Assembly (NCBI GenBank): GCA_008501635.1
Contig: QQUJ01000018.1
Coordinates: 1-64,000 of the forward strand
Direction: 5' to 3'
DNA from: Pseudomonadota bacterium
GTDB taxonomy: Bacteria > Pseudomonadota > Gammaproteobacteria > QQUJ01
DNA length: 64,000 bases
Numbering within the stretch: the stretch's first letter is position 1; each line of letters begins with the position of its first letter. The translations under genes were made by a program, and so were the position numbers. Under the pieces are notes generated by a model. The model saw only the letters and a list, made by a program, of their open reading frames with translations. It was not told where the DNA came from and searched no databases. This document shows, piece by piece, positions 19,553 through 62,943 of the stretch.

Positions 19553-19715
19553 AGGGAACCTCTGATTAAATCGTGTTCAGTGATTCTGTTGTCCGGAAGC
19601 GGCGATTTCAGTGTTGGAGAGCTTGGCAATAGCGGGCTATTACCCGCACTTTCCGCCTTGAACTCGCTGCCTCTGAACACCACTCTTATCTGAACAGATT
19701 TAATCAGAATTCCCT
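19553..19715. mobile_element. miniature inverted-repeat element (MITE-like), copy type A
   Basis: The ends are an imperfect inverted repeat: 19553-19580 (agggaacctctgattaaatc...) against 19690-19715. There are about 25 matching positions allowing a two-base indel. The 163-base element has no coding capacity. A secondary pair gtgttcag/ctgaacac (19573-19580 and 19673-19680) lies inside. A central hairpin of aatag/ctatt type is at 19625-19644. No clear target duplication is visible. It sits between pgeF and the SYLF gene. Confidence 0.65.
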
Positions 19716-44209: not shown

Positions 44210-44550
44210 AGAGTCGGCCAGACAACCGCTGTGCTTTGTCACGGAGGAAAGTCCGGGCTCCATAGGGCAGGGTGCCAGGTAACGCCTGGGAGGCGCGAGC
44301 CTACGGAAAGTGCCACAGAAAACATACCGCCAAAGTCCTTCGGGACCGGTAAGGGTGAAATGGTGCGGTAAGAGCGCACCGCGCCGCCGGCAACGGCGGT
44401 GGCAGGGTAAACCCCACCCGGAGCAAGACCAAATAGGGGGGCGATAGGTGCGGCCCGCACTGTCCCCGGGTAGGTCGCTTGAGGTGTGCGGCGACGCACA
44501 TCCCAGATGAATGGTTGTCCACGACAGAACCCGGCTTATCGGCCGACTCT
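44210..44550 (+). ncRNA. rnpB: RNase P RNA, bacterial class A
   Basis: The ends pair as the P1 helix (agagtcggcc at 44210-44219 with ggccgactct at 44541-44550). The conserved core elements are present: gaggaaagtccgggctcc near 44255-44272, the ggtaacgcc segment near 44278, and the 3' acagaacccggcttatcgg element near 44523-44542. The length of 341 bases fits gammaproteobacterial type A RNA. This RNA matures tRNA 5' ends with RnpA. Confidence 0.95.
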
Positions 44551-44719
44551 CCCTTTATTCCGCACCGAACCACCCCTCCCGCGACTTAATGTCGTCATTT
44601 AGCTTAACCCGTCAACCTTATGAAATAGCTCGATATTGATGGGCTGTTTCGTGCGTGTGTCAGCTACGTGCACAGGTCACAAAATGCTCGTAAACCCCTG
44701 TTCTTGTGGAGAAAACGCC

Positions 44720-62673: not shown

Positions 62674-62943
62674 CTAGAACCTATCTCAGAATCCCCCGCG
62701 AGTTGTGCCGGTCGCTCGCGGTTTCAGCGCCAGGCGCGGCGAGCGTGGTTGGGTCATTCCCAATGAGCGAGCCGCAACACCGCGCTGGAGCCACGAGCGC
62801 CCGGCCCTTCGGGTTGGCCCCAGAGGTGCGCTGGCGGTGTTCTCGACTTGCCAATAGCGTTGCTATTGGCTGCGCCTTCGGGCCTACCCAGCGCACCTCT
62901 GGGGCTCAACACAGCACGCGGGGGATTTTGAGATAGGTTCTAG
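62674..62943. mobile_element. miniature inverted-repeat element (MITE-like), copy type B
   Basis: The ends form a 27-base inverted repeat with one mismatch (62674-62700 with 62917-62943, ctagaacctatctca...). The outermost CTAG on both sides is palindromic and could be a target duplication. Two internal structures are perfect: a 17-base-pair stem (62818-62834 with 62888-62904) and a nine-base-pair hairpin (62850-62858 with 62862-62870, three-base loop). The 270-base element has no believable gene. It lies between ftsZ and lpxC. Confidence 0.8.

Follow-up and report, generated by a model that had tools for sequence, protein, structure and literature searches.

Why do two MITEs with unrelated ends, lying in the same window (the whole stretch of DNA that was analysed, 64,000 nucleotides), carry a similar hairpin at their center? 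The first-pass annotation suggested a common functional module, perhaps an RNA hairpin or a protein-binding site, captured by different elements. Our analysis leads us to lean, without firm conviction, towards a reading in which this hairpin forms the tip of a folded module that is conserved and strand specific, resides in non-autonomous transposons, and most likely acts as RNA.

Core shared by the type A and type B elements

The two elements, called type A and type B, have the following features in the window.

Type A
19553 to 19715, no strand: MITE of about 163 bp, with AGGGAACCTCTGATTAAATC-like ends and more than 20 copies in the genome
19553 to 19572, plus strand: left TIR, AGGGAACCTCTGATTAAATC, from end comparison
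19608 to 19663, minus strand: core with helix 1 and helix 2 (model R2, 60.0 bits, E value 2.4e-14; flank test)
19616 to 19621, no strand: helix 2 arm pairing with 19649 to 19654, register from the core alignment
19624 to 19644, minus strand: helix 1, GGTAATAGC/GCTATTGCC on the minus strand (string check and R2)
19649 to 19654, no strand: helix 2 arm pairing with 19616 to 19621, register from the core alignment
19696 to 19715, minus strand: right TIR, imperfect, read by eye

Type B
62674 to 62943, no strand: MITE of 270 bp, from its TIRs and many other copies in the genome
62674 to 62707, plus strand: left TIR (CTAGAACCTATCTCAGAATC...), with 34-nt arms that are 91% complementary
62803 to 62816, no strand: GGCCCTTCGGGTTG, a small hairpin upstream of the core, read by eye
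62834 to 62890, minus strand: core (model R2, 56 positions), without helix 2 (28.8 bits, E value 1.4e-5, partly by construction)
62850 to 62870, minus strand: helix 1 hairpin, GCCAATAGC/GCTATTGGC, with the minus-strand loop AAC (string check and R2)
62910 to 62943, minus strand: right TIR, partner of the 34-nt left arm

In helix 1 of type A, a U.G pair on the minus strand corresponds to C.A on the plus strand. A small hairpin of the GGCCCTTCGGGTTG type was also noticed by eye upstream of the core at two loci of other genomes (L350 and L352). The gene downstream of the type B element is presumably lpxC-like. Both elements satisfy the MITE criteria of a length below 500 bp with TIRs (163 bp for A and 270 bp for B) and of many dispersed copies. 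As to a target-site duplication, CTAG- or TTAA-like flanks were seen by eye in several copies, without regularity.

The strings on which the proposal of a shared hairpin rested are present exactly as read, namely, gccaatagc-gtt-gctattggc at 62850 to 62870 in type B and cttggcaatagcgggctattacc at 19622 to 19644 in type A. Both elements are multicopy in their own genome (3.93 Mb), where full or partial copies of type B are numerous. The pattern CAATAGC-N0-6-GCTATT gives 52 matches there, compared to 2 for a reversed-pattern control; since type B sites match on both strands, these correspond to 31 distinct places, 30 of which fall by their coordinates within A, B, or a remnant of A, the exception being C29:151616.

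R2, a covariance model derived from 33 foreign cores, is significant in the window only at A and B, in both cases on the minus strand, the next match having an E value of 0.13. Since the cores behind R2 had been found with patterns of the A/B hairpin, the hairpin part of these matches is expected and not fully independent. Outside the seed (GCA...AAG), the flanks of A were equalled or outscored by 1 of 60,000 random places (possibly A itself), and those of B by 992 of 60,000 (p of about 0.017); on the opposite strand, the flanks of neither element stood out from random places. Furthermore, of 28 hairpin-only matches in three other genomes (a palindromic match entering the count once per strand), 20 carry CTT ahead of the hairpin and TGC following it at the same spacing, which is found also in B and A, the A copy of the window having CGC for TGC. 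It follows from the flank scores and from these bases that the shared unit exceeds the hairpin, clearly for A and more weakly for B. Thus, a hairpin common to two elements with different ends is confirmed, and much of a 56-nt core is common to them as well.

Thirty loci were fetched per element in the genome of the window, and R2 was run on 29 of type B, 23 of type A, and 1 type-A-like remnant (L087), leaving about 10 further B-like partial matches out of the count. The core was found (E value below 0.01) in 22 of the 23 type A loci and in the remnant, the only miss being a centerless piece (L053), and in 22 of the 29 type B loci, the misses being centerless pieces (L018, L023, and L028 to L030), a center-deleted copy (L021), and a degenerate copy (L027). 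The locus of the remnant (C15, positions 1 to 320) is the start of a contig and opens with the right end of the multicopy IS5-like IS described below, immediately followed by the right half of the type-A-like element; apparently, the IS was inserted into the core.

In the same genome, palindromic mini-elements of about 60 to 80 bp with type B ends and without the core lie at C10:642335, C23:16282, C30:182871, C5:56661, C29:102815, and C30:56056 (L326, L327, L328, L322, L338, and L339, respectively). R2 found no core in the five of these six that were included in its run, L322 being outside it. The existence of at least six small core-less elements with type B ends implies that those ends can have moved without a core in cis. 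Copies lacking the hairpin, or an absence of covariation, would have counted against the initial proposal; copies of the first kind do exist, in the form of L021 and at least six core-less elements with type B ends, and covariation is present, as described below.

Covariation of the core

On the strand opposite the one read in the first-pass annotation, the consensus of the 33 cores is UCAAGGC-[6]-YGCA-[SN U/C AAUAGC]-nn-[GCUAUUGNS]-AAG-[6]-AACGCAGA. A structure of 14 pairs was evaluated on these foreign cores: 94.2% of the cells pair, compared to 75.1% (sd 1.3) after shuffling, the covariation score is 0.531 versus 0.181 (none of 500 shuffles as high), and both-sided changes occur in 85 cells versus 28.5. 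When the partners are slid by 1 to 3 columns, pairing falls to 26 to 45%.

In a structure-free test on 56 representatives (picked by a 75% identity cut), the six best pairs of columns at least 4 columns apart are pairs of the core. A tree-aware permutation null was applied to 36 representatives, for which 39 of 209 cores without the GTT/GCC flanks had been dropped (every type B core, those of the Acidovorax kind, a small number of others, and chance matches of the pattern). E values of at most 0.01 were reached by three core pairs and by one outer pair (L-18:R+18), each of the seven top-scoring column pairs is a nested pair of the hairpin, and several true pairs are individually nonsignificant. 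Helix 1 and helix 2 both covary. The covariation of helix 2 is free of search bias, since this helix lies outside every search pattern, whereas in helix 1 the inner six pairs are almost constant and belonged to the search patterns, which makes them uninformative in this respect. The check proposed at the outset, i.e., a covariance model examined for compensatory changes, is thus positive, and the criterion of a structured RNA, covariation beyond phylogeny and shuffling, is met, type B alone being without helix 2.

As regards the unpaired positions, search patterns or filters acted in part on the loop bases and on the GTT/GCC flanks, whose conservation is therefore partly ascertained. Unbiased support comes from the CTT and TGC of the 20 hairpin-only matches and from the position just outside helix 2, which is T/G in 180 of the 209 unfiltered cores.

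These data bear on two other readings. It could be hypothesized that the dyad AATAGCnnGCTATT is a site in double-stranded DNA, bound by a dimeric host protein, and that the outer pairing merely reflects the inverted-repeat nature of MITEs. The near invariance of the inner six pairs of helix 1 would agree with this (even if they are inside the search pattern), as would type B, which retains little beyond helix 1 and the loop bases. Nevertheless, a double-stranded site leaves the covariation of helix 2 and the strand asymmetry described below unexplained, and distant families change the dyad with compensation, as judged by eye (AATGGC/GCCATT and others), so that we regard it as rather unlikely. 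We consider still less probable a functionless by-product of mutation, in which template switching, known to perfect quasi-palindromes, would preserve the pairing, and strand-biased C-to-T changes would yield the G.T pairs. Such a process should erase the internal loop, yet CTT and TGC persist in the hairpin-only matches, and the unpaired T/G outside helix 2 is likewise kept.

Strand asymmetry of the fold

The structured-module reading gains from the fact that the core does not fold equally on its two strands. Among the 36 representatives, helix 2 has 21 cases of A.C on the shown strand (i.e., G.U on the other) and 5 of G.T (p of 0.0025), an asymmetry present both in the pattern-selected half (11 versus 2) and in the other half (10 versus 3), and in the same direction in the 56 representatives before the flank filter (35 versus 12). 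The outer two pairs of helix 1 show no such wobble asymmetry (1 versus 1, or 5 versus 1 the opposite way), and the innermost variable pair of this helix (22 versus 1) was excluded as evidence because the patterns fixed its 5' base and one of them fixed the partner to A/G.

Predicted folding energies point in the same direction, all the values reported here being predictions. For whole elements of three end types, the reverse strand is more stable in 97 of 98 (GGAACC, with means of -78.0 kcal/mol on the reverse strand and -56.9 kcal/mol on the other), 17 of 17, and 14 of 14 cases. When the core is taken with flanks of about 60 nt, the reverse strand is better in 19 of 22 loci with other ends (1 of 23, L364, left out since no core was found in it), in 14 of 14 from another class, in 19 of 22 of the genome's own type A, and in 7 of 7 Pseudoalteromonas loci. 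The consensus of 55 elements reaches -69.9 kcal/mol on the reverse strand and -17.1 kcal/mol on the shown one, and its 60 pairs comprise, over the 55 elements, 2674 Watson-Crick, 371 G.U, 78 A.C, and 167 other cells, a count favoured by having predicted the structure on that same strand. The type A copy of the window (L031) is an exception (-64.5 kcal/mol shown versus -63.6 kcal/mol reverse), and type B has no preference for the reverse strand, which is better in 1 of 7 full elements and 5 of 17 core-centered copies. Type B keeps helix 1 and the CTT and TGC bases and has not kept helix 2; it is an outlier and may represent a lineage in which the fold is being lost or only its tip was kept.

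Covariation and one-strand folding point to a structured RNA and do not exclude folded single-stranded DNA. The latter is the main rival, and it assumes that one strand folds during replication or transfer and that an enzyme recognizes the fold, as occurs with attC sites and with the hairpins of IS200/IS605. With DNA energy parameters, the fold is strand specific too (reverse strand better in 53 of 55), and the conserved unpaired bases also speak for this reading. On the other hand, the G.U cells exceed the A.C ones (even if structure prediction favours that strand), IS5-family transposases match two of the end types, and no overall bias was found relative to the replication fork (73 copies with and 77 against it, covering 150 of 153 copies in 13 single-contig genomes chosen for having matches, the fork direction being derived from the position of dnaA and an assumed opposite terminus), although a single genome, G569, gives 14 versus 4. 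Overall, we deem folded single-stranded DNA unlikely, while still a serious contender.

A model based on read-through from neighboring genes was also considered and rejected. The orientation of the core relative to flanking naive ORFs is unbiased (48 versus 33, p of 0.12) in a sample of 131 non-B cores, each separated from the locus ends by 700 bases or more, which further includes 27 divergent and 15 convergent arrangements, 6 cores in ORFs, and 2 at edges. Nothing therefore indicates a role for read-through in one direction, and we do not favour the view that the element is kept as a cis-regulator of host genes.

End types and probable IS5-family partners

The core lies in the middle of mini-transposons whose ends are of at least five kinds, namely, GGAACCTCTGAT, GGGCACCTCTAT, GAGACCTTTGC, GAACCTATCTCA (type B), and the AACCTGA type of Pseudoalteromonas, besides further elements with GC-rich ends that are less well bounded (several ends by eye). 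In elements with GGAACC ends, from other genomes and from the window's own, the size is 158 to 161 bp in 95 of 100. The proposal of a module common to elements whose ends are unrelated is hence supported, and with more types of element than the two initially noticed; the direction of transfer, transcription, and the binding partner are not shown.

For two foreign end types, a candidate partner transposase was found. An IS of 1204 bp with the ends GAGACCTTTGCACGA (L295) and one of about 1250 bp with the ends GGGCACCTCTATTTAGT (L296) have TIRs nearly identical to those of the core elements in their respective genomes, and their transposases score above the NCBIfam cutoff for IS5 (NF033581). Type A has a similar IS: several contigs of its genome end in a multicopy IS5-like IS (e.g., C10:1-405 and C3:1-225; L314 and L315), which appears to break the assembly at these points. 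The ends of this IS, of which only the outer parts are seen, differ from the type A pattern by 2 to 3 mismatches in 20 bases, and its protein fragment resembles the transposase of L295. In the same genome, PF01609 finds 5 DDE transposase matches, partial or interrupted. No partner transposase was found for the type B ends.

The core elements differ from these IS5-family ISs in that the latter carry a transposase and no significant R2 match (none in L295, best E value of 0.13 in L296), and none of 19 loci with IS5-transposase similarity has a core inside an IS, the start of C12 being a place where a type B element lies beside an IS end. A search for a parent IS containing the core was unsuccessful. 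The scan for TIR pairs gave a single 1.6-kb pair, in L180, a locus that contains two core-bearing elements.

These findings are relevant to the idea that the core is a residue of the interior of a parent transposon, which would fit the common description of MITEs as deletion derivatives of ISs in the part of the review seen by us (PMC10969869). Two full-length ISs with near-identical ends lack the core, so that, within what could be seen of them, it is not a remnant of these ISs; none of the 19 transposase-like loci carries it within an IS; and at least five end types share it. We give this explanation hardly any credence.

Distribution of the core in other genomes

In a set of 94 genomes (one per family, with that of the window among them), G056 is the one further genome in which the bare hairpin pattern shows a strong enrichment (61 matches versus 1 for the control); there, the hairpin lies mid-element in two MITE families with different ends; further such families were seen in G082 and G092. 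Two differently ended families of G056 (L136 and L138) have a similar insertion of about 50 bp at the same spot of the core, which suggests exchange between families or a site preference.

At E values up to 1e-3, a first covariance model, R1, had matches in 52 of 369 genomes when run on the class, including the four used to build it. For R2, which was run on the phylum, the matches at E values up to 1e-4 lie in 56 of 398 genomes, with 23 from the same class (own included) and 33 from another class, all of one family. A pattern scan of named genomes gave at least 117 stretches. Among the matches listed are Thiotrichales, Sedimenticola (with S. selenatireducens DSM 17993), Thiodiazotropha, tubeworm symbionts, Methylophaga, Methylococcaceae, Nitrosomonas, Comamonas, Acidovorax, Polaromonas, and records titled only Gammaproteobacteria or Proteobacteria. 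The core is thus seen in Gammaproteobacteria, in Burkholderiales (to which we take Comamonas and its relatives to belong), and in another class. In the 13 single-contig genomes mentioned above, there are 1 to 46 copies each. The genomes sampled include metagenome bins, and copies inside one genome are related.

Concerning mobile replicons, a BLAST search with a Polaromonas core gave 45 places on six records of large plasmids from Pseudoalteromonas, with seven places on the large plasmid of Pseudoalteromonas sp. Bsw20308, and R2 matches all seven loci fetched from these records; a Comamonas element partially matches two plasmids. No match was obtained for type A, type B, and an Acidovorax element in plasmids, for a GGAACC element in phages, or for a core in E. 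coli.

The more distant families of the core (L350, L351, L352, L364, L365, L366, and L368) have an altered AATAGC/GCTATT stem, mostly with compensation, and yet other ends.

Comparison with known families and putative role

MITEs are usually regarded as inert leftovers of ISs. Here, many lineages keep a folded core and a strand-specific structure despite differing ends, which argues that the interior of the element does something.

On the minus strand of the window, the module has the order AAGGC, helix 2, YGCA, helix 1 (SN[U/C]AAUAGC nn GCUAUUGNS), AAG, the second arm of helix 2, and AAC, and in most elements of three end types, the remainder of the sequence extends it into a single predicted hairpin of about 159 nt. 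If the structured-RNA reading is correct, a transcript of the reverse (minus) strand would fold in this way, its transcription being inferred, and a protein would recognize helix 1 and the internal loop, a binding that is inferred as well. Since the same core occurs in elements with very different TIRs, a host factor conserved over a wide range is a more probable partner than a single transposase. The elements would be moved by resident IS5-family transposases through their short TIRs, at least where a matching IS was found, i.e., for two end types, with a similar IS for type A. The computations show the sharing, covariation, and strand asymmetry of the core, together with ISs that have near-identical ends and lack it; a benefit to the element, like its transcription and protein binding, is inferred.

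A larger hypothesis, which we advance tentatively and which could well prove wrong, is that the core is a mobile structured RNA domain, of about 56 nt within an element-long hairpin, and a conserved unit that spread through Proteobacteria by swapping or evolving its DNA ends to suit the resident transposases, with a conserved host protein as partner. In the CORE-SINEs of animals, a central core is conserved and the ends change to match partner elements. Here too, the core is kept while the ends differ; in contrast, SINEs are retrotransposons with polymerase III promoters, whereas the present elements are DNA, with two end types matching IS5-family ISs. If the hypothesis holds, the core would be a bacterial counterpart of CORE-SINEs.

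No Rfam 15 family reached the cutoff for the core in the window or at 17 other loci, and relaxed scans gave only hits far below the cutoff at five loci and nothing for type A. Among the matches listed in full-text searches of the literature, none describes the shared core, and a description may exist elsewhere. Of these matches, the closest published works are a report on Coxiella MITEs that yield sRNAs (PMC5896051) and a review on MITEs (PMC10969869), and a Porphyromonas MITE paper contains GAGACCTTTGC (PMC4596501), each of these sources having been available to us only in part. QMITE1 and QMITE2 of Coxiella burnetii, whose loci give sRNAs, resemble our elements in being small, with TIRs, many copies, and a long hairpin, but the portion of the report available describes no core common to MITEs with different ends (PMC5896051). 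GTAG- and CGTC-tagged REPs, as far as the accessible part of their description goes, share a short conserved palindrome with many intergenic copies, but are 20 to 40 bp long and tagged at one end, unlike the present elements with long TIRs (PMC3733652). By eye, neither a GTAG nor a CGTC tag is found at the foot of the hairpin in the 33-core consensus. In integron attC sites, one strand folds with conserved unpaired bases, and the inverse core sites are RYYYAAC and GTTRRRY. The core is similar to attC in having a fold and conserved unpaired bases on one strand, and RYYYAAC...GTTRRRY boxes were not seen in its consensus on inspection by eye.

The sequence model ties together intergenic repeats of many Gammaproteobacteria that are unannotated in the records examined, and it allows a search for the putative RNA and for its protein partner. 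Elsewhere in the window, positions 44210 to 44554 of the plus strand correspond to an RNase P RNA of class A.
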